A DNA stretch of 34,042 nt, from positions 1 through 34,042 of IMG/VR virus record IMGVR_UViG_3300036761_001709; one strand, written 5' to 3'. Source of the DNA: a virus. Below, in pieces: positions 2,900 through 33,025 of this stretch. Numbering within the stretch: the first letter of the stretch is position 1; each line of letters opens with the position of its first letter. A model generated the notes under the pieces. The model did not search any database and was not told the DNA's origin. It saw only the letters and a list, made by a program, of their open reading frames with translations. A program made the translations under genes and the position numbers.

Positions 2900-2924
2900 A
2901 CTTCTTCCAAGGAAACATGTATAT

Positions 2925-5795: not shown

Positions 5796-5809
5796 AGATG
5801 TACTTCTAT

Positions 5810-5882
5810 TGCGGGATAGAGCAGTGGCAGCTCGTCAGGCTCATAACCTGAAGGCCGGGGTGTTCGATTCCCTCTCCCGCTA
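5810..5882 (+). tRNA. tRNA-Met(CAT), initiator-like
   Basis: Full cloverleaf: D-stem GAGC/GCTC, anticodon stem TCAGG/CCTGA with loop CTCATAA, T-arm loop TTCGATT. Bases 1 and 72 are T and T and cannot pair, the hallmark of bacterial initiator tRNA. The three G:C pairs of the host initiator anticodon stem are only partly kept. CCA is not encoded. Confidence 0.88.
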
Positions 5883-5903
5883 ATGCGAGGAGTTAATCAC
5901 TTC

Positions 5904-5947: not shown

Positions 5948-6628
5948 ATGGATGAATATCATTATGTGGTGTACAAAACTACAAACAATGTGAATGGTAG
6001 AACGTATGTTGGAGTTCATAAAACCAAAAACATTGATGATGCATATCTGGGGTCGGGTACGCTTATCAGGCGTGCTGTGAAGAAATATGGCCGAGAGAAC
6101 TTTTCGAAGGTGATATTGGCCGTCTTCGATAATCCTGATGATATGTTTTTTATGGAGGAACTGCTCGTTAACGAAACAACCCTTCAAGAAAACAAATCAT
6201 ACAATCTTGTTCGAGGTGGACGAAATTCCATTAGCTTTGTTAATGATAACCTGGAACAATTTCGTCCTGCGGAAAAAAGGAAACAATGGGCGGCAAAGGG
6301 TCGCCAGGCAATAAACGAGTTATATACCATTGAAGAGCGCCATGTCTGGAGCATTCGAGGAACAAATCGTGCGAAAGAGCTTCAAGTTGGCTTGTATAAT
6401 TCTGCTAACAGAGCTTTGGGTGGGTTTGCAGGGAAACAACATACGGAGGAAAGTAAGCGAAGTATTGGCGAAAAGAACTCGCAACTCCAGAAAGGAAAAC
6501 GCAATTCTCAATTTGGTAAAATTTGGATTTACAGCGACAAACAGAGAAAATGCTTGTCAGTTCTTAAAGATGCTGCTAATGTCTATCTTGAACAGGGATG
6601 GAAAAGGGGTCGTAAGAAATACATGTAG
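5948..6628 (+). CDS. GIY-YIG homing endonuclease with NUMOD3-like motif
   Basis: 226 residues, ATG 5948, no ribosome binding site upstream. YHYVVYKTTNNVNGRTYVGVHK is the GIY-YIG core (here VVY and YVG), followed by YLGSG...AVKKYGRENF, typical of phage homing nucleases. GKQHTEESKRSIGEKN is a NUMOD3 DNA-binding motif and the C-terminal KIWIYSDKQRKCLSVLKDA a second modular motif. It sits between an initiator-like tRNA and a structured non-coding stretch leading to bS21. I looked for a group I intron core around it and did not find one, so it is probably free-standing. Confidence 0.9.
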   Translation: MDEYHYVVYKTTNNVNGRTYVGVHKTKNIDDAYLGSGTLIRRAVKKYGRENFSKVILAVFDNPDDMFFMEELLVNETTLQENKSYNLVRGGRNSISFVNDNLEQFRPAEKRKQWAAKGRQAINELYTIEERHVWSIRGTNRAKELQVGLYNSANRALGGFAGKQHTEESKRSIGEKNSQLQKGKRNSQFGKIWIYSDKQRKCLSVLKDAANVYLEQGWKRGRKKYM

Positions 6629-9737: not shown

Positions 9738-10190
9738 ATAAAGTGTAAAAAATCAAAAATACCGTCCGAGTTCTATAAACGAACTTCGACTGCTGATGGC
9801 TTGCAACGTCAGTGTATTGTATGCATGAAACAAAATGACGCAATGTACTATCAAGCGAACAAGAAAAAGTTGATTAAGCGTTACGTGCGACAACAAAAGA
9901 GTCGTGCTCAAAAATTTTACAATTTGTTTAAGCAGTATGCTTACTGTACGGTCTGTCAAGAACAAGATGTGTGTTGTTTGGACCTACATCATATTGACCC
10001 TAAACAAAAAGACTTTACAATTTCATCTGTTTTAAGAACCTATACATGGGAGCGAATTGTTGACGAAATGGAGAAATGTACCGTATTATGTCGTAATTGC
10101 CATTCAAAGGTTCATAAGTATGGTGAGGCGTTTGTCGCTCAAAAGACCCTAAATCAAAATCTAGCAACAAAGTTTTTGAAGCTCGTATAG
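9738..10190 (+). CDS. HNH endonuclease, eroded N-terminus, overlapping tRNA-Arg
   Basis: The conserved part CTVCQEQDVCCLDLHHIDPKQKDFTI...CTVLCRNCHSKVH is a complete HNH core related to the HNH proteins at 14495 and 19419. Alignment by eye with those two shows that the frame upstream of the first TTG (9801) is also homologous (KCKKSKIPSEFYKRTSTADG...CIVC). However, the expected start codon is ATA (9738), and the second cysteine of the first CxxC is Ser. GGGGAC lies 11 bases before. Either a non-standard start or a start-codon mutation has occurred. The last ten bases, including the TAG stop, are the first bases of tRNA-Arg(TCT). Confidence 0.7.
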   Translation: MKCKKSKIPSEFYKRTSTADGLQRQCIVCMKQNDAMYYQANKKKLIKRYVRQQKSRAQKFYNLFKQYAYCTVCQEQDVCCLDLHHIDPKQKDFTISSVLRTYTWERIVDEMEKCTVLCRNCHSKVHKYGEAFVAQKTLNQNLATKFLKLV

Positions 10191-10255
10191 TTCAGAGGTA
10201 GAACGGGGAATTCTAAATTCCTGCGTCGCGGGTTCGAGTCCTGCTGCGGGCACCA
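10181..10255 (+). tRNA. tRNA-Arg(TCT)
   Basis: Acceptor GCTCGTA/TGCGGGC (two wobbles), D-stem GTTC/GAAC, anticodon stem GGGAA/TTCCT with loop TTCTAAA, T-loop TTCGAGT, A73 and encoded CCA. Its first ten bases are shared with the end of the HNH gene. Confidence 0.93.
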
Positions 10256-10261
10256 TATTTT

Positions 10262-10352
10262 GGAAACTCGTGTTGTTTCCATCATAAATACGTTGTCATT
10301 TATATGACAGAAGAGAATACATTTTTAACTTTTATCAGACGGGAGAAGGAAC
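10262..10352 (+). promoter_or_regulatory. Late promoter CATAAATA (10283-10290) flanked by two hairpins
   Basis: GGAAAC/GTTTCC hairpin (10262-10280) just upstream, then CATAAATA (start near 10296), then a TGTCAT-TTAT-ATGACA hairpin (about 10295-10310) in the leader. GGGAGAAGGA serves the ATG at 10353. Confidence 0.6.
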
Positions 10353-11672
10353 ATGAAGACATATGTAGGTATCGCACGCGATCATAGCGTTTCAATTCGC
10401 AGTTACGGTCTCGAAGGTGCATGCACCAAAGACTACAATACGCAAATCGCGGCAATTCAAGCAGGTTCAACACAATACAATCAAGACTCAATCGTTAGCG
10501 TTGTTCGTTTCAGCGACGTCGTCGAACGTGAAGTCGTCAATTCGCCGGTTGGAGTTTTGACACCTATCACAATATATCGTGCTAATGGTGGTTCGACCCG
10601 ATTGTACGACGGTATCGGCGAACTGATTTCAATTTTCGAAAAGTTACCAGATGCAAACGATCCGAACGTTGCGTTCTTGATTATGGCTATTACCGACGGC
10701 GAAGAGAATTCTTCTCGTACCTGGCGTAGTGATCATCTGCAACGTAAGATGCATCAATTGCAAGGAACAGATCGTTGGACATTCACGATTCGCGTCCCAC
10801 GCGGGTTCAAACGTGCGTTGGTTCAACGTGGGTTCTATGAAGGTAACGTCTTCGAATGGGAACAAACACAACAAGGAATGCAAATTGCAGAAGCGGCAAC
10901 TTCACTCAGTGTTGGTTCTTACTATGCAGCACGTTCACGTGGTGTAACGATGACCAAATCGTTTTACACAACGGATTTGAGCAATGTTAATATCAAGACA
11001 ATTCAAACGAACTTGATTGATATTTCCAAGCAAATTAGTGAATGGAAAGTCAATACTGATACAGAGTCACAAATGCAAATTCGTGAATTTGCAGAAAAGA
11101 TGAGTGGTAAGCCAATGCTTCGTGGGGCTGCATTCTACGAACTAGTTAAGAAAGAAGATGAGGTTCAAGAATATAAATTGATCATGATTCGTGACCGTGC
11201 AACACGTGCTGTATATTGTGGTCCGAATGCACGTCAACTTCTCAATCTACCAACAAGTGGCACAATTCAACTTCGTCCAGGTGATCATGCAGCGTATGAC
11301 GTGTTTATCCAATCAACCTCTGTTAACCGCAAGTTGCCAGTTGGCACGACATTGATGTATTGGCCAAATGTTGGTGTGGGGTACATTGAAGGCAAGAGTG
11401 CACCAAAAGCTGCTGCATCAACTCCAGCCGTCAAACCTGCTCGCAAAGTTGGTGATCCCTCTCAACTAGTTCGTAAGCAACAAATTGCTGCTGGTATTGT
11501 TCCAACGACACCTTCGGGAGGAGATTGGAATGCTGGTTATACGACTGGTTATAAACATGGCCGTGGAAAACAAGCCAATCTAGCAAAGAAAGGTACGTTT
11601 GCCGGTAATGCGACTGCATATCAAGAAGGTTTCACTGATGGTAAGGCAAAGAAGGCAAGTAAAGTCAAGTAA
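10353..11672 (+). CDS. VWA-domain protein with basic C-terminus
   Basis: 439 residues, ATG 10353. The N-terminus is a von Willebrand A fold with an intact metal-ion-dependent adhesion site: DHSVS at residues 10-14, the threonine in GGSTRLYDGIG (Thr82) and ITDGEEN (Asp115). A middle domain (residues ~230-350) is of unknown type. A linker rich in Ala, Pro and Lys follows, then a tail with GYTTGYKHGRGK and YQEGFTDGKAKKA, which looks like a short repeated Gly/aromatic motif. VWA proteins in phages often pair with AAA+ ATPases; such a pair exists at 27878-32246, but no direct link is shown. Closed by a strong terminator. Confidence 0.85.
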   Translation: MKTYVGIARDHSVSIRSYGLEGACTKDYNTQIAAIQAGSTQYNQDSIVSVVRFSDVVEREVVNSPVGVLTPITIYRANGGSTRLYDGIGELISIFEKLPDANDPNVAFLIMAITDGEENSSRTWRSDHLQRKMHQLQGTDRWTFTIRVPRGFKRALVQRGFYEGNVFEWEQTQQGMQIAEAATSLSVGSYYAARSRGVTMTKSFYTTDLSNVNIKTIQTNLIDISKQISEWKVNTDTESQMQIREFAEKMSGKPMLRGAAFYELVKKEDEVQEYKLIMIRDRATRAVYCGPNARQLLNLPTSGTIQLRPGDHAAYDVFIQSTSVNRKLPVGTTLMYWPNVGVGYIEGKSAPKAAASTPAVKPARKVGDPSQLVRKQQIAAGIVPTTPSGGDWNAGYTTGYKHGRGKQANLAKKGTFAGNATAYQEGFTDGKAKKASKVK

Positions 11673-11687
11673 TTTAGTTTCAAACTG

Positions 11688-11719
11688 AAAATGCCCGTTT
11701 CGACGGGCATTTTTCTTTT
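11688..11719 (+). terminator. Intrinsic terminator
   Basis: ATGCCCGT-TTCG-ACGGGCAT flanked by AAA and TTTTTCTTTT: a UUCG tetraloop hairpin with a perfect 8-bp stem. The A-run upstream makes it potentially bidirectional. Confidence 0.92.
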
Positions 11720-11756
11720 GGGGGGTCAATAAGATAAAAACGTTAGTTGCCCCTTG

Positions 11757-11788
11757 TCTCCTATAAATATCATCACATCCATGGGAGA
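11757..11788 (+). promoter_or_regulatory. Late promoter TATAAATA (11762-11769) inside an SD-hiding inverted repeat
   Basis: TCTCC at 11757-11761 is the complement of GGAGA at 11784-11788, part of the binding site GGGAGA for the ATG at 11796. The predicted transcript start (about 11775) removes the left arm. Confidence 0.68.
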
Positions 11789-11795
11789 TTCCACA

Positions 11796-13565
11796 ATGAA
11801 ACAAGGCTTCATCATTGCTAAGAACAAGCAATCTAAGCTGTTCTTCAGCTCGCTCGGCTCTTACGACCGTCCTATTTGGACGGACAAATTAGAAGAAGCC
11901 GCATCATTTCACAGTGATTCAGTTGCTCATGCTTCAGTCAAGAAGCTATGGGAACATCGTCATTGGTCATCAAAAGTTGTTGCTATTTCTGAACTAGAAG
12001 CATTTAGAATCGATCCAGCAACACATGACAAATTACCAATTGTGCCACAAGGTGAAACTGGTGACGCTGTATCTCCAGACGATGCTTCTGCGGATGTTGA
12101 TTCACATTCTGAATATGCACCTGATGATGAACATGATGAACATGATGAACATGATGAACATGATGAACATGATGAACATGATGAACATGATGATCCAGAA
12201 GATATGGATTCTGATCCAAACTCAAGTGAAAGCGAAACAGATCACATGGATTCTGATTCGTCTGATTCTATGGAAGATCAGCTCAGCGCAGATTCAACAG
12301 CTGATGAAGATAGTGATGTTGATGGTGATCAAGGCGATGAAGAATGTCCAACATGTCATAAACATGCTGGTCAACATGAAGAAAATTGCGAAATGTCAAT
12401 GCCTGTTGTTTCTCAAGAAGAAGAACACACACGTGGCGTGTTCAGGGATGGTGAGAAGGTAAAGTGGCACGGACATGATGCAGAAATCATCGGTCACCGT
12501 CGCGGTGAAACTGATTTTGTTGTTGTTCGTGTGGGTGGGCTTGACCGCAAAGTTCCGTACACGGAAATTACAAAAGTAACGGAATCAATTGAAGGTGTAA
12601 ATCCACATATTGGTGCTCAAACAGCATCGGCTCATCCAGCCGGTGAACGTGCTGGACAGGCCCGCGCCGGAGAGCATGCCTGGTCAAATGCAAAACATGT
12701 ATACGTATATCTCAATGGTCGCAAATACGATTTTGAAAATAATGCACCAGCTGCAATTCTGTTCATCAAGAAGTTAACTCCTGATGAACAGAAACTTGCA
12801 AAGATGGTTACAGAAAGTCCAGCATTAACTCTGACAAATCTTCCAGCCGGTGAACGTGCTGGACAGGCCCGCGCCGGAGAGCATGCCTGGTCAGATCCAT
12901 CGCAGGCAAAACATGTATGTGTATATCTCAATGGTCGCAAATACGATTTTAAAAACAATGCAGCTGAAGCTGTTCGATTCATGCAGAGGTTAACTCCTGA
13001 TGAACAGAAACTTGCAAAGATGGTTACAGAAAGTCCAACGATGCCTAAGCGTCCTGGTAACGATCCTGCTCCACCACAAGAAAATAAGGATCTAATTCCA
13101 AACCTAACAAAACCAAAAGTTACAGACATTGGTTTTGATGATCCAGCTAATATTCCTCACCCACCAGAAACCGATCTTACATACGCAACAGCGATGGCGC
13201 ATGATGAAAAAGTAAAGATTCCTGGTAATGTGTTGGCAGCCTTGAAAGATAGTATCAATGTGTTCCGTAAAGCAGCCGACTATAACAATAATCGTGATGA
13301 TGCACAATCATCATTCTGTATGACAGTTACGGGTGCACTGGAAGAGCTTCACGATCATATTAGTCAGGGTACAGTTGAAGGTCTTAAGCAAGCACAAATT
13401 AAGATGTCTTCTTGGATGAATCCAATTACAACAAACATTCCTGATGTTGTTCGTTTGTTTGTCGTTAATGGTGGACGCCAGCCAACATTGAAAGATATGT
13501 TTGACACTAAGCGTGGTGAAGCACTATTGAAGCGTGCATCCAAAGGCTTTGGATATAAGGATTAA
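11796..13565 (+). CDS. Large late protein with DEH repeats and duplicated module
   Basis: 589 residues, ATG 11796. The N-terminal ~75 residues form a small folded domain (MKQGFIIAKNKQSKLFFSSL...). A very acidic region follows, with seven tandem DEH triplets (residues ~112-132) and many Asp/Ser runs. Next come a CPTCHKH...C cluster and an SH3-like basic beta domain (VKWHGHDAEIIGHRRGETDFVV). Then there are two copies of a module that starts PAGERAGQARAGEHAWS and continues with KHVYVYLNGRKYDFENN and LTPDEQKLAKMVTESP. A helical C-terminal domain ends in KRASKGFGYKD. No known family. The layout suggests a structural or scaffold-like protein, but function is unknown. Confidence 0.8.
   Translation: MKQGFIIAKNKQSKLFFSSLGSYDRPIWTDKLEEAASFHSDSVAHASVKKLWEHRHWSSKVVAISELEAFRIDPATHDKLPIVPQGETGDAVSPDDASADVDSHSEYAPDDEHDEHDEHDEHDEHDEHDEHDDPEDMDSDPNSSESETDHMDSDSSDSMEDQLSADSTADEDSDVDGDQGDEECPTCHKHAGQHEENCEMSMPVVSQEEEHTRGVFRDGEKVKWHGHDAEIIGHRRGETDFVVVRVGGLDRKVPYTEITKVTESIEGVNPHIGAQTASAHPAGERAGQARAGEHAWSNAKHVYVYLNGRKYDFENNAPAAILFIKKLTPDEQKLAKMVTESPALTLTNLPAGERAGQARAGEHAWSDPSQAKHVCVYLNGRKYDFKNNAAEAVRFMQRLTPDEQKLAKMVTESPTMPKRPGNDPAPPQENKDLIPNLTKPKVTDIGFDDPANIPHPPETDLTYATAMAHDEKVKIPGNVLAALKDSINVFRKAADYNNNRDDAQSSFCMTVTGALEELHDHISQGTVEGLKQAQIKMSSWMNPITTNIPDVVRLFVVNGGRQPTLKDMFDTKRGEALLKRASKGFGYKD
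12127..12189 (+). repeat. 9-bp tandem repeat (GATGAACAT x7)
   Basis: Seven in-frame copies of a 9-base unit encoding Asp-Glu-His. A likely slippage-prone tract inside the acidic linker of the 589-residue protein; the unit number may vary between isolates. Confidence 0.85.
12639..12893 (+). repeat. Two GC-rich ~50-bp direct repeats within a coding sequence
   Basis: A segment of about 50 bases encoding PAGERAGQARAGEHAWS occurs at about 12639-12689 and again at about 12843-12893 with essentially no differences, while the sequence after each copy has diverged. Its base composition is clearly more GC-rich than the surrounding gene. Confidence 0.8.
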
Positions 13566-13569
13566 TTTG

Positions 13570-13728
13570 ATGACACTTGATGAGATTGTAGTTGAGAAAA
13601 AGGTTCTAAAAGAAGGAACTGCACCACGTGCGACTTCACCCATGGCGAAGTCGTCAAACAAAGGAAAGCAGAAAACTACAAAACGAGCAAAAGCTCGTCG
13701 TGTTACTTTTCAATGGTCCGGCGGTTGA
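13570..13728 (+). CDS. Small basic protein, unknown
   Basis: 52 residues, ATG 13570, four bases after the preceding stop and without its own strong ribosome binding site, so probably coupled. The N-terminal MTLDEIVVEKKVLKEG is helical; the rest (KSSNKGKQKTTKRAKARRVTF) is strongly basic, suggesting nucleic-acid binding. No family recognised. Confidence 0.55.
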   Translation: MTLDEIVVEKKVLKEGTAPRATSPMAKSSNKGKQKTTKRAKARRVTFQWSGG

Positions 13729-13854
13729 TTTACTATAACAAATCACATATACTTACAAAATATTGAAACTTGACAGTTGGAAAGACAACGGCTACCCAAA
13801 GTGCTAATGGAGAGTGGTTGGATACATCCATTGAAATAGTTTCAAAAACTGTTG

Positions 13855-13875
13855 ACCTCTTCTATAAATAGAGGT
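13855..13875 (+). promoter_or_regulatory. Late promoter TATAAATA (13863-13870) inside an inverted repeat
   Basis: ACCTCT (13855-13860) and AGAGGT (13870-13875) flank a perfect TATAAATA. The start of transcription would be about 13876, at the head of a highly structured RNA. Confidence 0.65.
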
Positions 13876-14116
13876 ACAGTAATTAAATATTTGCTTTACA
13901 AAATTTAACCGAAGGGTAATGAAATGCAACATTGTCTACACCAACATAGCTGGCAACTGAGCGATAGTTCGCTCGGGCTGAGCTCTATGCGTTCATATCG
14001 ATTTGAACGTGTTGAGCAGCCTAGCAGCTCCCTTCGTGGAGATGATCTGAGAGCATAATTTCAGAAAATCAGAACAAACACGAAGGGCAGCTCCGGAAAC
14101 GAAGCTGCCCTTTTTA
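13876..14116 (+). ncRNA. Candidate late ncRNA with its own promoter and terminator
   Basis: About 240 bases between a perfect late promoter and an intrinsic terminator. Contains hairpins CTGAGCGA/TCGCTCGG (13957-13976), CGTTCA/TGAACG (13990-14009), a TCTGA/TCAGA hairpin (about 14047-14066) and a long-range 9-bp pairing CCCTTCGTG (14030-14038) with CACGAAGGG (14079-14087). The last of these competes with the terminator stem. A 44-codon frame (13924-14058, MQHCLHQHSWQLSD...) is open, but its sequence is constrained by the hairpins and its binding site is poor, so RNA function is favoured over a peptide. Confidence 0.6.
14085..14116 (+). terminator. Intrinsic terminator
   Basis: GGGCAGCT (14085-14092) pairs with AGCTGCCC (14103-14110), followed by TTTTTATTT. 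The GGG of the left arm is also part of a competing 9-bp pairing with 14030-14038, so a terminator/antiterminator switch is possible. Confidence 0.88.
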
Positions 14117-14130
14117 TTTGCTCTTTGATG

Positions 14131-14356
14131 TACGTCCAGATAGGAAACGAGATCCTACTGTGGACGTAAAATATACAGGAATTGTCGGCGGCTAGGATGA
14201 AAGTACTGGCGTGAACAGTACGAGTAAAAGTAGTCACCACAGGGACAGCCTGTGGTAGAGTACGATAAGTATTCTAGAGGAACACTATAGAGGATGGTGG
14301 ATTCCCGTATGGGGATTCACTGCTTAGTCTGCGGACAAAGGTCTTCTGTAGTGTTC
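14131..14356 (+). ncRNA. Structured RNA element, unknown class
   Basis: No protein gene. Nested and consecutive helices: TACGTCCA/TGGACGTA (14131-14138 with 14161-14168) enclosing TAGGA/TCCTA; GTACTG/CAGTAC (14203-14221); ACCACAGG/CCTGTGGT (14236-14256, perfect 8 bp). A 12-bp stem GAACACTATAGA (14280-14291) with TCTGTAGTGTTC (14345-14356) encloses a 10-bp stem 14297-14306 with 14311-14320. This density of pairing is far above that of neighbouring coding DNA. It ends 21 bases before tRNA-His. Confidence 0.6.
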
Positions 14357-14377
14357 TTAGTGGATTTTCACTTCAAT

Positions 14378-14452
14378 GGTGGTCGTAGTGTAGTGGTTCT
14401 GCATACTTGGCTGTGAACCAGGGGGTACCGGATCGTAACCGGTCGATCACCC
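14378..14452 (+). tRNA. tRNA-His(GTG)
   Basis: Acceptor GGTGGTC/GATCACC, anticodon stem CTTGG/CCAGG with loop CTGTGAA, T-stem ACCGG/CCGGT with a non-standard T-loop ATCGTAA. C at position 73, as in His tRNAs. Only CA of a CCA end is encoded. Confidence 0.82.
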
Positions 14453-14454
14453 CA

Positions 14455-14480
14455 AGTTCAACTATAAATAAAGTTGAACT
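14455..14480 (+). promoter_or_regulatory. Late promoter TATAAATA (14463-14470) inside a 9-bp inverted repeat
   Basis: AGTTCAACT (14455-14463) and AGTTGAACT (14472-14480) flank TATAAATA. The binding site TAGGAAG of the HNH gene starts four bases after the right arm. The predicted start near 14476 removes the left arm. Confidence 0.62.
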
Positions 14481-14494
14481 CAATAGGAAGTGAA

Positions 14495-14917
14495 ATGTCA
14501 GCAAAACGAAAAATTTGTACACAATGTAAGAAAGAGAAAGCTATCACAGAATATCGCCGTGATAGACTGCGAACAGACGGTCGAAATTCAGCTTGTAAAG
14601 TTTGCATGCGAAGTTTGCAAAGTAAACGATATAAAGAACTTTATTCACAAACAAGAGCAACACGTGATAAAGCTCTTAGAGATGAAAATCGAAAGAAACT
14701 TGATGAAATTAAACGGTTTTGTGGATGTTCGTGTTGTGATGAAAAAGAACTTGTATGTTTGGAATTTCATCATCGCAATTCATCGCAAAAAGATTTTACA
14801 ATTGGTCAAAATACTCACAGAACGTGGAATTATATTGAAAGTGAGATTTCAAAATGTACGATTGTGTGTTCAAATTGTCATAAAAAGATTCATGCTGGCT
14901 TAGTGAAAATCCCCTAA
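14495..14917 (+). CDS. HNH endonuclease, zinc-finger type
   Basis: 140 residues, ATG 14495 with TAGGAAG upstream. An N-terminal CTQCKKEKAITEYRRDR...DGRNSACKVC zinc finger is followed by the HNH core CGCSCCDEKELVCLEFHHRNSSQKDFTI...CTIVCSNCHKKIH. The core contains the double histidine FHH and closing N-x-H, so it should be an active homing-type nuclease. Close relatives lie at 9738 and 19419. It occupies the gap between tRNA-His and an unusual tRNA that begins 20 bases after its stop. It has a late promoter inside an inverted repeat. Confidence 0.9.
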   Translation: MSAKRKICTQCKKEKAITEYRRDRLRTDGRNSACKVCMRSLQSKRYKELYSQTRATRDKALRDENRKKLDEIKRFCGCSCCDEKELVCLEFHHRNSSQKDFTIGQNTHRTWNYIESEISKCTIVCSNCHKKIHAGLVKIP

Positions 14918-14937
14918 GAGCATTACGTGTTCTTAAT

Positions 14938-15009
14938 TGGAGAGTAGCTCAGAGAAAGAGCACCAGCAACTACGGCTGGATGTCGATGGTTTAAGTCCAT
15001 CCTTTCCAA
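14938..15009 (+). tRNA. Atypical tRNA, anticodon position reads CTA, A33
   Basis: Acceptor TGGAGAG/CTTTCCA, D-stem GCTC/GAGC, anticodon stem CCAGC/GCTGG and T-stem GATGG/CCATC all pair, but the anticodon loop AACTACG has A at the universally conserved T33. The D-loop AGAGAAA lacks G18-G19, and the T-loop TTTAAGT lacks C56. If read normally the anticodon CTA would decode the amber codon. Possibly decayed or non-decoding. Confidence 0.6.
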
Positions 15010-15014
15010 CAAAT

Positions 15015-15105
15015 GGTAGATTGGCAGAGTGGCGATTGCAGCGGTTTGCTAAACCGTAGACTGGCGAAAGTCGGTCCATAGGTTCGAGTCCTATATCTAC
15101 CGCCA
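15015..15105 (+). tRNA. tRNA-Ser(GCT)
   Basis: Acceptor GGTAGAT/ATCTACC, anticodon loop TTGCTAA closed by GCGGT/ACCGT, long variable arm (GACT...AGTC), T-loop TTCGAGT, G73 and CCA encoded. A regular class II serine tRNA. Confidence 0.93.
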
Positions 15106-15166
15106 AATTGATAAGCACATGTTGAGGGACTGAAAAGACATGTCACCACTGGTCAACGTTCCAAAT

Positions 15167-15238
15167 ATCTCGTGTAAGGGAATTACCTCGGACCCTGCGA
15201 AGGTTTGAAGTGCCGTTCAACTCGGCAACGGGATGCCA
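15167..15238 (+). tRNA. Atypical tRNA, anticodon GCG (Arg?)
   Basis: Acceptor ATCTCGT pairs fully with ACGGGAT, anticodon stem GGACC/GGTTT with loop CTGCGAA, T-stem TGCCG/CGGCA with loop TTCAACT, G73 and CCA encoded. The D-arm (GTAA/TTAC) is short and leaves no room for bases 8-9. Anticodon GCG would read CGC; bacteria normally use ACG there. Confidence 0.6.
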
Positions 15239-15253
15239 AATTAAAAGTTTAAT

Positions 15254-15329
15254 ACCATCATAGTGTAGTGGTTCTGCACGCGATCCTGTCACGGTTGAAG
15301 TAGGAGTTCGATCCTCCTTGGTGGTGCCA
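15254..15329 (+). tRNA. tRNA-Asp(GTC)
   Basis: Acceptor ACCATCA/TGGTGGT, anticodon stem CGATC/GGTTG with loop CTGTCAC, T-stem AGGAG/CTCCT, G73 and CCA encoded. The D-arm resembles that of the tRNA-His at 14378. Confidence 0.88.
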
Positions 15330-15340
15330 AATTATTATAT

Positions 15341-15426
15341 GGGGTGTTAGCATAGTCTGGCTTAATGCGCTTGCCTGTCACGTGTCACGCAAGAGATCAC
15401 GAGTTCAAATCTCGTACATCCCGCCA
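15341..15426 (+). tRNA. tRNA-Asp-like with duplicated anticodon loop
   Basis: Acceptor GGGGTGT/ACATCCC, D-stem GCAT/ATGC, anticodon stem CTTGC/GCAAG, T-stem ACGAG/CTCGT, G73, CCA encoded: every stem is intact. The anticodon loop, however, is 14 bases because the heptamer TGTCACG is present twice (15376-15382 and 15383-15389). Removing one copy restores a normal tRNA-Asp(GTC). Confidence 0.75.
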
Positions 15427-15428
15427 AT

Positions 15429-15503
15429 AGGAGAGTAGCTCAGATGCAAGAGCGCAGCCCACGGGGGCTGAGGTCGATGGTTTAAATCCATCCTCTCCTA
15501 CCA
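15429..15503 (+). tRNA. Atypical tRNA, anticodon position reads CGG, A33
   Basis: Acceptor AGGAGAG/CTCTCCT, D-stem GCTC/GAGC, T-stem GATGG/CCATC, A73, CCA encoded. The anticodon arm is one base short (stem CAGCC/GGCTG leaves a six-base loop), position 33 is A, the D-loop lacks GG and the T-loop is TTTAAAT without C56. It shares these defects, and much sequence, with the tRNA at 14938. Confidence 0.55.
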
Positions 15504-15595
15504 ATTATAAGGAAAAGAGATACCGTGATCTTCCAGCCAGCAAGGGCTGGTGACTTCCACAACCGGGAAGTCTAATAAATGCACGGGCCAATTTT
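15504..15595 (+). other. Spacer with two hairpins
   Basis: CCAGCC/GGCTGG (about 15533-15550) and GACTTCC/GGAAGTC (about 15552-15572) are perfect short hairpins between tRNA genes; they may be processing signals or tRNA debris. No gene seen. Confidence 0.35.
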
Positions 15596-15680
15596 GCGTG
15601 TGTGCCCGACCGGTAAGGGGCGAGGCTGTAACCCTCGAGCATGCTAGCCATAGGTGGTTCGATTCCATCCACACGCACCA
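15596..15680 (+). tRNA. tRNA-Tyr(GTA)
   Basis: Acceptor GCGTGTG/CACACGC, anticodon stem CGAGG/CCTCG with loop CTGTAAC, long variable arm, T-loop TTCGATT, A73, CCA encoded. A class II bacterial tyrosine tRNA. Confidence 0.93.
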
Positions 15681-15690
15681 AGTTTTAAAT

Positions 15691-15773
15691 GTATCGGCTG
15701 GGCATTGGCGAGCCCAAGTGGCTGTAACCCACCCGTCTAGGCTGTGGCGGTTCAACTCCGTCCCGATACACCA
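15691..15773 (+). tRNA. tRNA-Tyr(GTA), second copy
   Basis: Acceptor GTATCGG/CCGATAC, D-stem GGGC/GCCC, anticodon loop CTGTAAC closed by GTGG/CCAC, class II variable arm, T-loop TTCAACT, A73, CCA encoded. Diverged from the first tRNA-Tyr, so not a recent duplicate; position 8 is C rather than T. Confidence 0.85.
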
Positions 15774-15790
15774 TTGATTCAAGCGGAAAA

Positions 15791-15824
15791 AGCTGCCCCA
15801 ACACCTTGGAAAGGTATGGGGCAC
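15791..15824 (+). other. Strong hairpin between tRNA genes
   Basis: TGCCCC...GGGGCA encloses ACCTT-GGA-AAGGT (about 15794-15823). No T-run follows, so it is more likely a processing or stability element than a terminator. Confidence 0.4.
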
Positions 15825-15836
15825 CTATACCAATAT

Positions 15837-15912
15837 GGTGCATTGGCAGAGCGGTTAGTGCGTTTCCCTCATAAGGAAAAAAACAGTGGTTCGAATCCAC
15901 TATGCACCACCA
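15837..15912 (+). tRNA. tRNA-Met(CAT), elongator, or Ile with modified CAT
   Basis: Acceptor GGTGCAT/ATGCACC, anticodon stem TTTCC/GGAAA with loop CTCATAA, T-stem AGTGG/CCACT, A73, CCA encoded. Base 1 pairs with 72, so it is not an initiator. A lysidine-modified Ile tRNA cannot be excluded. Confidence 0.85.
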
Positions 15913-15943
15913 AGTTGTGATTAACTTAACTTTCAGAAATAAT

Positions 15944-16030
15944 GCCTTTGTGGTGGAATTGGTATACACACGATGTTGAGAACGTCGGCCCTTAAGTGGG
16001 ATGCAGGTTCGATTCCTGTCAAAGGCACCA
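15944..16030 (+). tRNA. tRNA-Leu(GAG)
   Basis: Acceptor GCCTTTG/CAAAGGC, anticodon stem CGATG/CGTCG with loop TTGAGAA, variable arm GCCC/GGG, T-loop TTCGATT, A73, CCA encoded. Confidence 0.92.
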
Positions 16031-16034
16031 AGTT

Positions 16035-16100
16035 GTTGCGTAGTAAGACGGTTACTTCACTTATGGAAAAAGAGAGTTAGAGGTTCGATTCCTCTCCTGG
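16035..16100 (+). pseudogene. tRNA-like remnant (T-arm only)
   Basis: A perfect T-arm AGAGG-TTCGATT-CCTCT at 16079-16095 has no matching acceptor or anticodon stem. The upstream part starts GTTGCGTAG, as does a second remnant at 20712, so the two share an ancestor. Confidence 0.45.
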
Positions 16101-16150
16101 AAAGCTGGTGCTACTTCGTCACTGTCTGCGACTTTAACTCAGCTTGAAAT

Positions 16151-16220
16151 GGCGAGATAGTTTAATGGAGAACATCCCCAAATGGAGGGGATAGCGTAGG
16201 TTAGAATCCTTCTCTTGCCT
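16151..16220 (+). tRNA. Atypical tRNA, anticodon position reads ATG, A33
   Basis: Acceptor GGCGAGA/TCTTGCC, D-stem GTTT/GAAC, anticodon stem TCCCC/GGGGA with loop AAATGGA (A33). The T-loop TTAGAAT lacks C56, and the 3' end CTA stands in place of CCA. Third tRNA in the window with A33. Confidence 0.55.
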
Positions 16221-16295
16221 CTAATTAACTGGACGAGAAAACCCACGAACCTGACATGATGGATGGTTCAAAGCACGAATCAAAGTAAAAATTAT

Positions 16296-16372
16296 CAGGG
16301 TGTGATGCCAATTGGAAGGCGACCTCTTTTGGAAAGAGGAATATGCACGTTCGAGCCGTGTCACCCTGACCA
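16296..16372 (+). tRNA. tRNA-Pro(TGG)
   Basis: Acceptor CAGGGTG/CACCCTG, anticodon stem CCTCT/AGAGG with loop TTTGGAA, T-stem GCACG/CGTGT, A73, CCA encoded. Confidence 0.92.
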
Positions 16373-16383
16373 AGTAATACAAT

Positions 16384-16462
16384 CTCTCTTTCGCCTAGTC
16401 TGGTTATGGCACCTCGTTTGGGGCGAGGAAAAACGTCCGTTCGAATCGGACAAGAGAGACCA
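16384..16462 (+). tRNA. tRNA-Pro(TGG), second copy
   Basis: Acceptor CTCTCTT/AAGAGAG, anticodon stem CCTCG/CGAGG with loop TTTGGGG, T-stem GTCCG/CGGAC, A73, CCA encoded. Diverged from the copy just upstream. Confidence 0.92.
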
Positions 16463-16466
16463 AGTT

Positions 16467-16544
16467 GTCCCTATCGTCTATTGGTTTGAGGACGGGAGCC
16501 TTTCAAGCTCCAGAGCGCGGGTTCGAATCCCCGTAGGGACGCCA
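16467..16544 (+). tRNA. tRNA-Glu(TTC)
   Basis: Acceptor GTCCCTA/TAGGGAC, anticodon stem GGAGC/GCTCC with loop CTTTCAA, T-loop TTCGAAT, G73, CCA encoded. Confidence 0.94.
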
Positions 16545-16549
16545 AGTAT

Positions 16550-16640
16550 GGAAGATATCGCGACGGCTCGCGGCCTTGCCTTGAAAACAAGTACAGCGGT
16601 GATGAACCGCTGGGGGATCGACACCTTCTATCTTCTGCCA
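16550..16640 (+). tRNA. tRNA-Ser(TGA)
   Basis: Acceptor GGAAGAT/ATCTTCT (G1:T72 wobble), loop CTTGAAA, strong variable arm CAGCGG/CCGCTG, G73, CCA encoded. The T-loop ATCGACA departs from consensus and pair 31-39 is mismatched, so activity may be reduced. Confidence 0.82.
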
Positions 16641-16647
16641 AGTTAAT

Positions 16648-16724
16648 GCACAGGTAGCTCAGCCTGGTAGAGCAGCTGGTTGAAAACCAGCGTGGCGGTG
16701 GTTCAATTCCATCTCTGTGCACCA
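16648..16724 (+). tRNA. tRNA-Phe(GAA)
   Basis: Acceptor GCACAGG/TCTGTGC, D-stem GCTC/GAGC, anticodon stem GCTGG/CCAGC with loop TTGAAAA, T-loop TTCAATT, A73, CCA encoded. Confidence 0.94.
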
Positions 16725-16731
16725 ATAAATA
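16724..16731 (+). promoter_or_regulatory. Late-promoter-like element AATAAATA before the GNAT gene
   Basis: Starts in the last base of the tRNA-Phe CCA and lies exactly 13 bases before the ATG at 16737, so a T4-type start would coincide with the start codon. Confidence 0.4.
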
Positions 16732-16736
16732 ACACC

Positions 16737-17126
16737 ATGAAACTAACCGAAATCATTACTGATGACACTGAAACATTTAAGAGATTGTTTCAAGTATTTA
16801 TCAACAGTAGACAGCGTAATCAGTGGTTGGAAACTGACACGATCAAAATCTACATACGCAAAGGTACACACATGATTGATGGAAATCTTGCCAAGACCCT
16901 CGACATCGCAAATATCAACATCGATGAAACGGAGCGTGGTCAGGGTGTTGGAACAATGTTGATCGATTGGCTGCATCAACAAAATCCGTTTCCTGTAACA
17001 CATGTTGAAAATATTCAAAATCCACGTTTGTATACACACCTAAAGAGGCTCGGTTGGTTAGATGTTGCTGGTACGGAGCCGCCAAGTGTTTACAAACTCA
17101 AATACATCCATCGACTAACGGTTTAG
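16737..17126 (+). CDS. GNAT-type N-acetyltransferase, C-terminus read from a tRNA gene
   Basis: 129 residues, ATG 16737, 12 bases after tRNA-Phe, no ribosome binding site. DIANINIDETERGQGVGTMLIDWLHQQ contains the acetyl-CoA-binding R-GQGVG-x-L motif of the GNAT fold, preceded by a beta strand with the typical polar pattern. The domain is short and lacks part of the usual C-terminal strand. The substrate is unknown. The final codons (YIHRLTV and stop) are the acceptor and D-arm of tRNA-Glu(CTC), so the natural C-terminus may have been lost. Confidence 0.75.
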   Translation: MKLTEIITDDTETFKRLFQVFINSRQRNQWLETDTIKIYIRKGTHMIDGNLAKTLDIANINIDETERGQGVGTMLIDWLHQQNPFPVTHVENIQNPRLYTHLKRLGWLDVAGTEPPSVYKLKYIHRLTV

Positions 17127-17176
17127 GTCGCTACGTTCTCAGCGTGGAAATACCGGCTCGAATCCGGTTGGGTGTA
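17104..17176 (+). tRNA. tRNA-Glu(CTC)
   Basis: Acceptor ACATCCA/TGGGTGT, D-stem GAC/GTC, anticodon stem CTACG/CGTGG with loop TTCTCAG, T-stem ACCGG/CCGGT with loop CTCGAAT, A73; CCA not encoded. The first 23 bases overlap the end of the GNAT gene. Confidence 0.8.
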
Positions 17177-17191
17177 CATTAGTTACTCGAT

Positions 17192-17265
17192 GGCCCTGTG
17201 GTGTAGTGGTAACATGACTGTCTCCAAAACAGATGACCGAGGTCCGATTCCTTGCAGGGTCGCCA
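17192..17265 (+). tRNA. tRNA-Trp(CCA)
   Basis: Acceptor GGCCCTG/CAGGGTC, D-stem GTGT/ACAT, anticodon stem CTGT/ACAG with loop CTCCAAA, T-loop TCCGATT, G73, CCA encoded. Confidence 0.9.
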
Positions 17266-17266
17266 A

Positions 17267-17444
17267 ATGAAATACTATTGTGATGATCGAAGACATCTTG
17301 GTTCCATGGCGAACGATATCCACATTACGATATTCCAAAACGAAGAATTGTTGAAGTGACAACAAAGTGCAATTTAGTAAGTAGTAAAGAATTATTAACA
17401 ATGATTAAAGCAGCCGTGGCAGAGGTGGTCCTACGTGCGCGAGC
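17267..17444 (+). pseudogene. Broken small phage gene (HYDIPKRRI type)
   Basis: ATG 17267 opens MKYYCDDRRHL and stays in frame only to a TGA at 17357-17359. In another frame the same stretch encodes HYDIPKRRIVEVTTKCNLVSSKELLTMIKAA, which reads on into tRNA-Phe and stops at about 17444. I recall these two blocks together in one small conserved phage protein (DUF4031-like), where they are joined by a middle segment that is missing here. So it appears to carry an internal deletion plus a frameshift. Confidence 0.6.
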
Positions 17445-17488
17445 CTGAAGAGCTTGAGATATCCGTTCGATTCGGGTCGGCTGCGCCA
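17410..17488 (+). tRNA. tRNA-Phe(GAA), second copy
   Basis: Acceptor GCAGCCG/CGGCTGC, anticodon stem CGAGC/GCTTG with loop CTGAAGA, T-stem ATCCG/CGGGT, G73, CCA encoded. The extended D-loop is unusual for Phe. Confidence 0.85.
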
Positions 17489-17501
17489 ACTAAATAGTAA
17501 C

Positions 17502-17550
17502 GGTCTCGTGGCGGAATTGGTAGACGCGCAAGCTTGAGCTTGGTAGACTT
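17502..17550 (+). pseudogene. tRNA-Leu 5' half, split from its 3' half by an HNH gene
   Basis: GGTCTCG acceptor strand, TG, and the canonical Leu D-arm GCGGAATTGGTAGACGC are followed by an anticodon arm with loop CTTGAG (one base short). Then the HNH unit begins. GGTCTCG is the perfect complement of CGAGACC at 18090-18096, the 3' acceptor strand of the tRNA after the HNH gene. Confidence 0.75.
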
Positions 17551-17567
17551 GCTCATAAATAAGAGCA
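17550..17567 (+). promoter_or_regulatory. Late promoter CATAAATA (17554-17561) in a small hairpin at the HNH start
   Basis: TGCTC (17550-17554) pairs with GAGCA (17563-17567), the latter including AAGAG and the A of ATG. The element starts exactly 13 bases before ATG 17567. Confidence 0.5.
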
Positions 17568-18013
17568 TGAAGTATACCAAAGAATTATTAGAACAACACG
17601 TCCCCCACGTTCATTCAAATGCGGAATTAGCACGCAGACTGGGGATTGTTCCCACAGGAAGTAACACAACCAACCTGGCAAAGCGGTGTCGTCAGCATAA
17701 CATAGACACCGCTCATTTTACAGGTCAAGCCCACAAACGTGGCAACCATGCTAACAATCGATTAGCACATTCGGAAGTGTTGGTGCTGCGCGATAAGATG
17801 CAAGGTAGAAACTCTGTTGCAAGGTTACGTAGAGCCATGTTAGAGTCAGGAATACAATACCGTTGTGAGTGTGGCAATGAGGGAGTGTGGAGAGAAAAAC
17901 TACTACCCCTTGACATTGATCATATCAATGGTGAATTTTGGGATAATAGGCGCAGCAATCTGCGGTTCATGTGTCCAAATTGTCATAGGCAAACGGATAC
18001 GTGGGGTAAATAA
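17567..18013 (+). CDS. HNH endonuclease inserted in a tRNA-Leu locus
   Basis: 148 residues, ATG 17567. The N-terminal half (SNAELARRLGIVPTGSNTTNLAKRCRQHNI) looks like a helix-turn-helix DNA-binding domain. The C-terminal half CECGNEGVWREKLLPLDIDHINGEFWDNRRSNLRFMCPNCHRQ is a complete HNH core (DIDHINGE, N-R-x-NLR, CPNCH). It is of a different HNH subfamily from the three FHH-type proteins in this window. It starts in the remains of a tRNA-Leu 5' half and stops one base before the next tRNA-Leu, so its recognition site is probably in that tRNA gene. Confidence 0.92.
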   Translation: MKYTKELLEQHVPHVHSNAELARRLGIVPTGSNTTNLAKRCRQHNIDTAHFTGQAHKRGNHANNRLAHSEVLVLRDKMQGRNSVARLRRAMLESGIQYRCECGNEGVWREKLLPLDIDHINGEFWDNRRSNLRFMCPNCHRQTDTWGK

Positions 18014-18014
18014 T

Positions 18015-18100
18015 GGGATCGTGATGTAATTGGTAGCCTTCACACGTTGAGATCGTGTGGCTCGTAGAGCGTGGGGGTTCGAGTCCCTCCGAGACCACCA
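18015..18100 (+). tRNA. tRNA-Leu(GAG), second, with patched 5' end
   Basis: Anticodon stem ACACG/CGTGT with loop TTGAGAT, variable arm GCTC-GTA-GAGC, T-loop TTCGAGT, A73, CCA encoded. The acceptor 5' strand GGGATCG mismatches the 3' strand CGAGACC at two positions, and the D-arm is poor. The 3' strand matches the 5' half stranded upstream at 17502 instead. Confidence 0.78.
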
Positions 18101-18117
18101 TTAGAAAGGGAGTACAA

Positions 18118-18660
18118 ATGAAAGTACGCATCGGTAAATATCGTTCATGGATCGGTCCATATCAACTTGCTGACATGTTGCAGTATGTTGGTTTGTCTGA
18201 AGATCGCTGTTATGCAATTGGAAAGTGGTTAGCAGAAACATGGCTCAATACTGCATGTGAATGGCTCCATAGTAAGAAGAACCGAGCAGTAAAGATTCAT
18301 ATTGATGATTATGATGTGTGGTCAATGGATTCCACGTTAGCGTATATTGTGTTGCCGATGCTGAAAAAACTTCAAGAAGTAAAACACGGCTCGCCCATGA
18401 CGGATGATGAAGACGTACCGGAACAACTTCGTTCAACGGCAGCTCCTCCAACAAAAAGTGAATGGGACACGGATGATCTATTTCATGATCGTTGGGCGTA
18501 CATTCTTGGTGAAATGATTTGGGCATTTGAACAAATTCATCCTGAGAACGAAGAGGAACAATTCAAAAAATACAAGGATGAAGAGAGAGACGAGAGAGAA
18601 AAACGAACCAGCAATGGCCTGCGATTGTTCGGGAAGTACTTCCGAGCATTGTGGGATTGA
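18118..18660 (+). CDS. Conserved T4-superfamily phage protein, unknown function
   Basis: 180 residues, ATG 18118 with AAAGGGAG upstream. Segments such as IGKYRSWIGPYQLADML, KIHIDDYDVWSMDSTLAYIVLPMLKKL, EDVPEQLRSTAAPP and the end NGLRLFGKYFRALWD are strongly conserved in a family I remember from many tailed phages, always as hypothetical. Mixed alpha-helical, no signal or membrane segment. A broken second copy of its C-terminus lies at 19184-19336. Confidence 0.85.
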   Translation: MKVRIGKYRSWIGPYQLADMLQYVGLSEDRCYAIGKWLAETWLNTACEWLHSKKNRAVKIHIDDYDVWSMDSTLAYIVLPMLKKLQEVKHGSPMTDDEDVPEQLRSTAAPPTKSEWDTDDLFHDRWAYILGEMIWAFEQIHPENEEEQFKKYKDEERDEREKRTSNGLRLFGKYFRALWD

Positions 18661-18662
18661 TA

Positions 18663-19184
18663 ATGAAGATTGAAGACATTATCGAATCGTTAAATTTCAC
18701 AACCAACATCGCATGGAACGGCGACGTGGGTACATTTGAAGTTAACAACCAAAAGTTTGTGATTACCGTTCGCCCAGCAAATGCCAATGAGAGACAAACG
18801 TTTGTTCCATTCTTTGGCAATCGTGCAAATGTGGGAAATGTTGACTTTTCTGCCGTTACACCAGATGGAACATTGACACAAGATTTAACATCCACGTCTG
18901 GAGCAACAGCAATGAAAGTTTTTTCAGTTGTTGCTCAAGCAGTAGCAGAACAAATTGCGCAACATCAATACAATATAGTCGTATGTGTTGCAAAACAGAG
19001 TGCAAGTCCTACCAACTATACTAATCGTGTTGTCGCGTATGAAACAATCATTGAACGGGCGGCACGAAAAGCAGGAATGTTGTCAATGACATTGGTGAGC
19101 AACGTAACAGAGACTGTATATGTTGTGTATAAACTTGAGCTACATGCTGAAATGCAACACGTTAAACAACATTTAGATACTTGA
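18663..19184 (+). CDS. Conserved-looking phage protein, unknown
   Basis: 173 residues, ATG 18663, two bases after the preceding stop. Starts MKIEDIIESLNFTTNIAW. The central part (FEVNNQKFVITVRP...NVDFSAVTPDGTLTQDLTSTSGATAMKVFSVVAQAVAEQI) and the end (YETIIERAARKAGM...ETVYVVYKLEL) suggest an alpha/beta fold. The two-part layout with IERAARKAG resembles phage proteins near acetyltransferase-like folds, but this is not secure. It lies between an intact gene and a truncated duplicate of that gene. Confidence 0.7.
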   Translation: MKIEDIIESLNFTTNIAWNGDVGTFEVNNQKFVITVRPANANERQTFVPFFGNRANVGNVDFSAVTPDGTLTQDLTSTSGATAMKVFSVVAQAVAEQIAQHQYNIVVCVAKQSASPTNYTNRVVAYETIIERAARKAGMLSMTLVSNVTETVYVVYKLELHAEMQHVKQHLDT

Positions 19185-19336
19185 TTTGGACTTTTGAACA
19201 AATTCATCCAGACAATGATTGGGAATGTCAATATTTTGGACCCACGTTTAATATGGAAGGTCATGATAAACATAATCAACGAATCGAAAATGGTTTACGA
19301 TTGTTTGGGAAATATTTTCGAGCGTTGTGGGATTAA
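19184..19336 (+). pseudogene. Truncated duplicate of the 18118 gene (C-terminal 50 codons)
   Basis: Open frame IWTFEQIHPDNDWECQYFG...ENGLRLFGKYFRALWD ending in TAA at 19334-19336. It matches the end of the protein at 18118-18660 (IWAFEQIHPEN...NGLRLFGKYFRALWD). There is no start codon or 5' part. The DNA of the two ends differs at many third positions, so the duplicate is old. Confidence 0.85.
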
Positions 19337-19375
19337 AATAATGTCAAGTTTCCTTAGCAAAGAATGGTGATTTTT

Positions 19376-19407
19376 CGTTTTCGAATAGTAAATAGATTTC
19401 GAAAGCG
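19376..19407 (+). promoter_or_regulatory. 10-bp inverted repeat with weak late element AGTAAATA (19387-19394)
   Basis: CGTTTTCGAA (19376-19385) pairs with TTCGAAAGCG (19398-19407); the HNH ribosome binding site AGGAG starts at the next base. The element deviates at two positions from TATAAATA. Confidence 0.45.
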
Positions 19408-19418
19408 AGGAGAATCAC

Positions 19419-19847
19419 ATGAAAACGTGTTCATCGTGCAGTAAAGGGAAATCAAACAATGATTTCCGACGTAACAAAAATGCACCAGACGGCTATCAAT
19501 ATTACTGTAAGCTGTGTGCGAGTGAAAAGATTCGATCTGCTTATAAAGCAAAGTATGCTTACAAGGTTAGAACGCGATCGAATAAGCGTCTTGCGGAGAA
19601 TCGACAACGAATTCAGAATTACAAGCTGCAGCATCCATGCAATTGTGGTGAAATTCATGTGGCTTGTCTTGAATTTCACCACACAGGTGGAAAGGATTTT
19701 ACCATTGCTGAACGAATGACTAATGCATGGGAAACGATTGAACGCGAGATTCAAAAATGTATAGTTGTATGTCGTAATTGTCATGCAAAAATACACTGGG
19801 AAGATCAACTGGACAGGCGCGCCAGAGCTGATTCGAAATCAGATTGA
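19419..19847 (+). CDS. HNH endonuclease overlapping tRNA-Ser(CGA) by 49 bases
   Basis: 142 residues, ATG 19419 with AGGAG seven bases upstream. A zinc finger CSSCSKGKSNNDFRRN...DGYQYYCKLC is followed by the HNH core CNCGEIHVACLEFHHTGGKDFTIAE...CIVVCRNCHAKIHW, a close relative of the proteins at 9738 and 14495. The conserved domain ends at KIHW, exactly where tRNA-Ser begins (19799). The remaining residues EDQLDRRARADSKSD are simply a translation of the tRNA. Confidence 0.92.
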   Translation: MKTCSSCSKGKSNNDFRRNKNAPDGYQYYCKLCASEKIRSAYKAKYAYKVRTRSNKRLAENRQRIQNYKLQHPCNCGEIHVACLEFHHTGGKDFTIAERMTNAWETIEREIQKCIVVCRNCHAKIHWEDQLDRRARADSKSD

Positions 19848-19885
19848 ACCGGTAACGGTTTGGGCTTCGATTGCTCGATCTTCCA
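19799..19885 (+). tRNA. tRNA-Ser(CGA)
   Basis: Acceptor GGAAGAT/ATCTTCC, D-stem CTGG/CCAG, anticodon loop TTCGAAA closed by CTGA/TCAG, variable arm AACCG/CGGTT, T-loop TTCGATT, A73; CCA not encoded. Its 5' 49 bases lie inside the HNH coding sequence. Confidence 0.85.
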
Positions 19886-32941: not shown

Positions 32942-33025
32942 GCCGGAATGGCTTAGGTAAATTGGTACAGCCGCTCGACTTAAGATCGTGTGCTTTTGTG
33001 GGTTCGAATCCCTCTTCCGGCACCA
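32942..33025 (+). tRNA. tRNA-Leu(TAA)
   Basis: Acceptor GCCGGAA/TTCCGGC, D-stem GCT/AGC, anticodon loop CTTAAGA closed by CGA/TCG, short variable arm, T-loop TTCGAAT, A73, CCA encoded. Pairs 28-42 and 50-64 are T:T mismatches. Confidence 0.85.

Follow-up and report, generated by a model that had tools for sequence, protein, structure and literature searches.

Why large phages keep long, fast-changing tRNA arrays is an open question. We analysed the IMG/VR virus record IMGVR_UViG_3300036761_001709 over its whole length of 34,042 bases (the window). ARAGORN called 37 tRNA genes in the window, all on the plus strand, and four HNH endonuclease genes (HNH1 to HNH4) lie on that same strand. Over the parts compared, it was 100% identical to a 54-kb contig that comes from this phage as well. 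The original prediction was that these four genes abut the 5′ ends of tRNA genes, and that they are homing endonucleases which target or exploit tRNA genes and may reshuffle the array. Our analysis confirmed the placement and bears out the interpretation in part, and we consider it probable that they are HNH homing genes of the free-standing kind, outside any intron, with tRNA genes as landing sites. The HNH genes, assigned to families by PHROG profile match, and the tRNA genes at which they end, examined with ARAGORN and an Rfam scan run in some cases at E≤10, were as follows.

9738 to 10190, plus strand, HNH1, phrog_2255, with a TAG stop that coincides with tRNA positions 8–10
10181 to 10255, plus strand, tRNA with a CTA anticodon, called by ARAGORN
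14495 to 14917, plus strand, HNH2, phrog_2255
14938 to 15010, plus strand, degenerate tRNA-like gene with CTA that lacks both U33 and CCA and shares 79% identity with the tRNA at 15429
17567 to 18013, plus strand, HNH3, phrog_10822, within a tRNA-Leu locus
18015 to 18100, plus strand, mosaic tRNA-Leu(GAG), the first ~45 nt similar to another Leu(GAG) lineage and the last ~41 nt the native 3′ end (..CGAGACCACCA)
19419 to 19847, plus strand, HNH4, phrog_2255, with its last ~16 codons within the tRNA-Ser gene
19799 to 19885, plus strand, tRNA-Ser(CGA), acceptor stem GGAAGAT/ATCTTCC, folded by eye

The ORFs and junctions agreed with the prediction, the gaps between HNH stop and tRNA start being −10 for HNH1 (10190 and 10181), +20 for HNH2 (14917 and 14938), +1 for HNH3 (18013 and 18015) and −49 for HNH4 (19847 and 19799). 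Two HNH subfamilies had also been predicted and were recovered, HNH1, HNH2 and HNH4 matching phrog_2255 (E about 1e-26 to 1e-29) and HNH3 matching phrog_10822 (8.6e-42), with the catalytic residues HH..NCH..H of the nuclease domain conserved; a fifth phrog_2255-type gene was not found in this record. The tRNA identities stood only in part, since Leu at 18015 and Ser at 19799 were correct, while the tRNA at 10181 is not Arg but carries the anticodon CTA, and the assignment at 14938 was incomplete, this degenerate gene likewise carrying CTA and giving no hit in Rfam at E≤10. Each HNH gene is an ORF of its own between tRNA or gene ends, rather than lying within a protein gene, intron or intein, and no group I or group II intron was matched in Rfam at E≤10.

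Given the dense tRNA array, the adjacency in this window alone was only modestly unusual. Other cargo genes likewise abut tRNAs, and 8 of the 26 other genes ended ≤60 nt from a tRNA start (Fisher p=0.018 against the four HNH genes), as did 7 of the 17 that belong to the array (p=0.055). These counts fit an explanation that we regard as rather unlikely, in which HNH genes accumulate passively and persist in dispensable, gene-poor, spacer-rich arrays, tRNA adjacency being a by-product of packing that involves no tRNA targeting. We therefore turned to the relatives of both HNH families, fetched as 142 loci including two reference phages and reduced to 103 non-redundant HNH genes, with the other ORFs of the same loci as a control (n=176). 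A tRNA was counted as nearby within 1.5 kb, and a gene as abutting when its end lay ≤60 nt from the point where a tRNA on that strand starts. A nearby tRNA was found for 82 of the 103 HNH genes (46 of 47 in family 10822 and 36 of 56 in family 2255). Abutting ends were present in 46/82 HNH genes (56%) as compared with 43/176 control ORFs (24%, p=1.2e-6), a control level that is itself in line with passive accumulation, and overlaps with the tRNA were present in 23/82 (28%) as compared with 9/176 (5%, p=7e-7). The location pattern is significant because this wider set, and not the single window, carries it, and the excess over same-locus controls argues against packing as its source. The overlaps clustered at −10 and −15, since reading frames that enter a tRNA commonly meet stops at positions 8–10 or 13–15.

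At HNH3, a further feature lies upstream of the gene.

17502 to 17543, plus strand, 5′ portion of the native tRNA-Leu(GAG) (GGTCTCG...TTGAG...), separated from its 3′ end by HNH3

The syntenic relative used for comparison was IMGVR 3300019458_000021 (loci L178 and L258; 46–79% protein identity over shared genes). At the HNH3 site it carries an intact tRNA-Leu(GAG) with the acceptor stem GGTCTCG/CGAGACC and without an HNH gene. In the window, the tRNA at 18015 begins with GGGATCG, ends with CGAGACCACCA, has two acceptor-stem mismatches and scores 28.5 bits, below the Rfam cut-off. Its first 45 nt aligned better with a tRNA of another locus (L181a, local alignment score 46) than with that of L178 (28), while its last 41 nt aligned better with the syntenic tRNA (50) than with the other lineage (36). 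Because the relative's tRNA is intact and the alignment scores are split in this way, the comparison indicates that the native tRNA-Leu is interrupted by HNH3 and that a mosaic tRNA was formed downstream. A position inside a tRNA gene is not what passive accumulation predicts. HNH3 has the 5′ portion of a tRNA on one side and a whole mosaic tRNA on the other, which is not the arrangement of a self-splicing intron around an ORF, and a group I intron in the tRNA-Leu was rejected for lack of Rfam support. As a separate observation, an HNH3 relative in Agrobacterium phage Atu_ph07 ends 1 nt from an opposite-strand tRNA-Leu (L167:1483-2338).

The comparison of related phages with and without the HNH gene at the same tRNA, suggested as a check of the original prediction, yielded empty sites in three settings: phage nataliec as compared with FelixO1, L178/L258 as compared with the window, and Vibrio phage D181 as compared with D69. 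For KC139640 the annotated tRNA coordinates were wrong, and ARAGORN calls were used in their place. In FelixO1, ORF47 is a clean insertion of the HNH gene alone into the 3-nt tRNA-Gly/tRNA-Thr spacer of nataliec; its TAA stop codon coincides with that spacer, and it ends 1 nt before tRNA-Thr, while ORF44 of FelixO1 overlaps tRNA-Ile. The syntenic relative has the CTA tRNA of the HNH1 locus without an HNH gene (L258:3846-3925), and at the HNH2 locus it has tRNA-His but neither HNH2 nor the degenerate tRNA. In the window that tRNA lies immediately before HNH2.

14379 to 14454, plus strand, tRNA-His(GTG), just 5′ of HNH2

Sporadic presence and empty sites in relatives, a trait of free-standing homing genes, were thus both found.

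Other pairs of phages differed in more than the HNH gene. In Salmonella phage FSL SP-107, as compared with nataliec, an HNH gene precedes tRNA-Ser and the upstream tRNA-Gly is replaced by a different one. Vibrio phage D69 carries an HNH gene that D181 lacks. Flanking stretches of 347 and 773 nt agree at 99.7% between the two phages, but identity falls to 66–83% in the four tRNAs that surround the HNH gene (Met, Arg, Gly and Leu), as compared with 98.7–100% for the next six. From these alignments, the difference between D69 and D181 is a sharp exchange tract of HNH and tRNA genes. A sequence footprint of co-conversion of the flanks was found in D69/D181 and in SP-107/nataliec, whereas in the window it consists only of the mosaic tRNA-Leu. 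These two tracts and the mosaic at 18015 support the prediction that the array may be reshuffled, and tracts that centre on the HNH gene and consist of tRNAs are a further point against passive accumulation. The boundaries of the D69/D181 tract coincide with tRNA ends, as would be expected if tRNA blocks moved as units, either because conserved tRNA sequences recombine or through a different nuclease, for instance a nearby GIY-YIG SegE-like enzyme, with the HNH genes as passengers. Conserved tRNA arms could act as recombination sites, and GIY-YIG homing genes are present in the same window. We nevertheless consider this improbable, since ORF47 of FelixO1 is an HNH-only insertion into a 3-nt spacer and since an HNH 3′ end at a tRNA 5′ end recurs in two unrelated families.

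At the HNH4 locus the relative showed the reverse history. The tRNA-Ser at 19799 was called neither by ARAGORN nor by Rfam in the window, but its counterpart in the relative (L178:4573-4664; 91% identity) was called by ARAGORN as tRNA-Ser(CGA). The relative keeps this tRNA and a 24-nt relic of the HNH4 3′ end, while the body of the gene is gone. Because the relic remains before tRNA-Ser, the comparison indicates that HNH4 was lost in the relative. The window and L178 share the overlap of ORF and tRNA sequence, and stop codons often lie within the tRNA. Both would also be expected if the HNH genes were no longer homing and their 3′ ends were fused to tRNAs for expression, with RNase P maturing the mRNA 3′ end and the proteins serving in another role. 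This explanation is hardly credible, as L178 keeps the tRNA though the HNH4 body is gone, and as the HNH genes are sporadic among close relatives.

If tRNA genes are the landing sites, related HNH proteins might be found at the same tRNA in different phages. HNH genes with about 41–63% identity, on contigs without homologous flanking proteins, were found at the same isotype in pairs for Leu (L101/HNH3, L103/L104, L019/L103 and L157/L160), Ser (HNH4/L021) and Asp (L023/L024 and L033/L034). After dereplication, the nearest HNH relative shared the isotype in 11/47 cases, as compared with 5.3 expected (p=0.02). It is suggestive, on this comparison, that similar HNH proteins of unrelated phages tend to occupy the same tRNA isotype, and isotypes shared despite unrelated flanks are not accounted for by passive accumulation. 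A more specific proposal, that these enzymes form an HNH class specialised on tRNA genes, with an isotype for each clade, in which the mobile unit carries a tRNA half and re-forms a mosaic, cut-immune tRNA, is a tentative one that we regard as possible but doubtful.

Several further results weigh against homing at tRNA genes. HNH relatives away from tRNAs, which had been named beforehand as evidence against the prediction, do occur in family 2255, in which 20 of 56 had no tRNA within 1.5 kb, as compared with only 1 of 47 in family 10822. A general test for remnants, in which part of the adjacent tRNA was sought in the HNH leader or trailer, was negative at most loci; split or duplicated tRNA remnants were clear only at HNH3, L007, L021, L104 and L115, and the notion that an HNH gene always lies inside a tRNA was dropped after this mostly negative test. 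L007 is a mirror case, with a complete tRNA-Gly upstream and the 3′ half of a tRNA-Gly directly after the HNH stop. HNH1 is probably inactive, because its reading frame offers no ATG, GTG or TTG start codon until 9801 and its N-terminal zinc knuckle is missing the first Cys. The isotype signal is only moderately significant after dereplication, and many nearest-neighbour pairs differ. Taken together, the predicted targeting or exploitation of tRNA genes gains good support from the insertion sites, namely the empty sites, HNH3 in tRNA-Leu and the shared isotypes, while the adjacency in a single window is weak evidence alone.

The location bias, the empty sites, the tRNA-Leu split by HNH3 and the exchange tracts can be read directly from the sequences; from them we infer DNA cleavage in tRNA genes, immunity of the carrier and homing as the cause of the pattern. 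In the likely cycle, a T4-late-type promoter belonging to the HNH gene would drive synthesis of the enzyme late in infection, and the enzyme would cut a tRNA gene, or the DNA at the 5′ edge of one, in a co-infecting phage without the HNH gene. Recombination repair would then copy the HNH gene and some flanking DNA into the break, so that the HNH 3′ end would land at or in the tRNA 5′ end, often with a stop codon taken from the tRNA sequence, and the adjoining tRNAs may be converted or turned mosaic during the repair. Candidate expression signals precede three of the four genes; no such upstream hairpin was found for HNH1.

14455 to 14480, hairpin with TATAAATA (T4-late-type −10) in the loop, 5′ of HNH2
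17550 to 17567, hairpin with a CATAAATAA loop, 5′ of HNH3
19372 to 19411, 14-bp hairpin over the ribosome-binding region, 5′ of HNH4

ATAAATA occurred within 80 nt upstream in 31/107 members, as compared with about 3 by chance. Control by a hairpin and a late promoter has been reviewed for I-TevI, segB and mobE (PMC2988022), and by analogy the hairpins before HNH2, HNH3 and HNH4 match this type of control.

The genes resemble several known systems without coinciding with any of them. In T4, MobA–E (HNH), SegF and SegG are intronless homing enzymes for which the neighbouring target gene is co-converted, the targets being mostly protein genes. As in those cases, we found a free-standing nuclease beside a converted neighbour, with a divergent neighbour allele in the HNH-carrying genomes, but the targets here would be tRNA genes. 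Some integrative elements have their attachment sites in tRNA genes and leave a restored tRNA behind. The insertion in or at a tRNA gene, and the tRNA gene still present afterwards, are shared with those elements; unlike them, the present case involves no integrase, a one-gene insertion of ~0.45 kb and, at HNH3, the supply of the 5′ half. The closest parallel, of which the present genes would be an HNH counterpart, is SegB of T4 and T6, a free-standing GIY-YIG homing endonuclease in a tRNA cluster (PMC13096335; PMC2988022, Table 1). SegB is reported to cut within tRNA genes at the motif RAWTSGAAC (in our reading, the T-arm) and to favour the inheritance or amplification of tRNA genes; its cutting in the tRNA region has been tied to escape from Septu, a tRNA-cutting defence, with tRNA-Tyr amplified (PMC13096335). 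Both systems have a free-standing homing gene beside tRNAs and hairpin and late-promoter control. Unlike SegB, the nucleases at the four sites belong to two HNH families only and not to GIY-YIG, their 3′ ends abut or overlap tRNA 5′ ends, and HNH3 interrupts a tRNA gene, downstream of which a mosaic tRNA has been re-formed; no isotype preference was found for SegB (PMC13096335), whereas HNH relatives tend to share an isotype.

HNH genes in phage tRNA regions are widely annotated, and FelixO1 has the same HNH type among its tRNA genes; the available text of its genome paper records the HNH copies without mention of tRNA junctions or an empty-site comparison (PMC3185647). In a literature search whose coverage left out many journals, no published description turned up in which HNH genes sit at tRNA 5′ ends, split a tRNA or form exchange tracts with tRNAs. 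If HNH genes home at tRNAs, selfish drive, and not codon usage alone, can explain the spread, duplication and mosaics of tRNA genes. Two HNH families would then join SegB as tRNA-linked homing nucleases, and the same test could be applied to many phages. Homing that regenerates tRNAs, if true, would recombine tRNA bodies between phages and may aid escape from tRNA-cutting defences.

Neighbouring features of the array are given for completeness. CTA (amber) tRNAs occur twice in the window (10181-10255 and 14938-15010), yet TAG ends 7/30 genes normally, and recoding of TAG was rejected on this ground. That the tRNAs adjoining HNH genes are damaged holds for 3/4 in the window but not elsewhere, most HNH-adjacent tRNAs of the related loci scoring ~40–71 bits, and the idea was set aside. 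The tRNA at 15429-15503, to which the degenerate gene at 14938 is similar, has a 6-nt anticodon loop. A stretch of ~85 nt before tRNA-Tyr (15515-15597; L258:8318-8402) is 94% identical in the relative, above most tRNAs and proteins; it matched no Rfam family and is possibly a conserved RNA. Uncalled tRNA-like sequences lie at 16033-16100 and 32949-33012, with similar copies at L178:2270-2307, L178:958-1017, L181:1920-1981 and L181:5037-5099. Three non-HNH genes (at 17104, 24899 and 26668; one acetyltransferase-like and two others) overlap tRNA starts by 1–23 nt. In Vibrio phage D69, a partial, sub-threshold match to GOLLD RNA (87 bits, clipped at the locus end) lies beside the tRNA array (L019:3178-3426).

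Two further rows concern the surroundings of HNH4 and another homing gene.

19182 to 19337, plus strand, partial duplicate of the 3′ end of gene 18118-18660, immediately 5′ of HNH4
5948 to 6628, plus strand, homing endonuclease gene of the GIY-YIG (SegE-like) type, separated by 64 nt from the preceding tRNA-Met 5809-5883

The partial duplicate belongs to a region (18118-19337) in which gene 18118-18660 (phrog_11543), gene 18663 and the duplicate stand in that order; in the relative, both the insert and the duplicate are absent. The GIY-YIG gene at 2189-3007, taken as a control, had only 7 distant relatives, none of them near a tRNA, which is too few to weigh. At the site of the window's SegE-like gene, the syntenic relative has an HNH relic (L258:653-906), which suggests that different homing genes turn over at one tRNA, the tRNA-Met.

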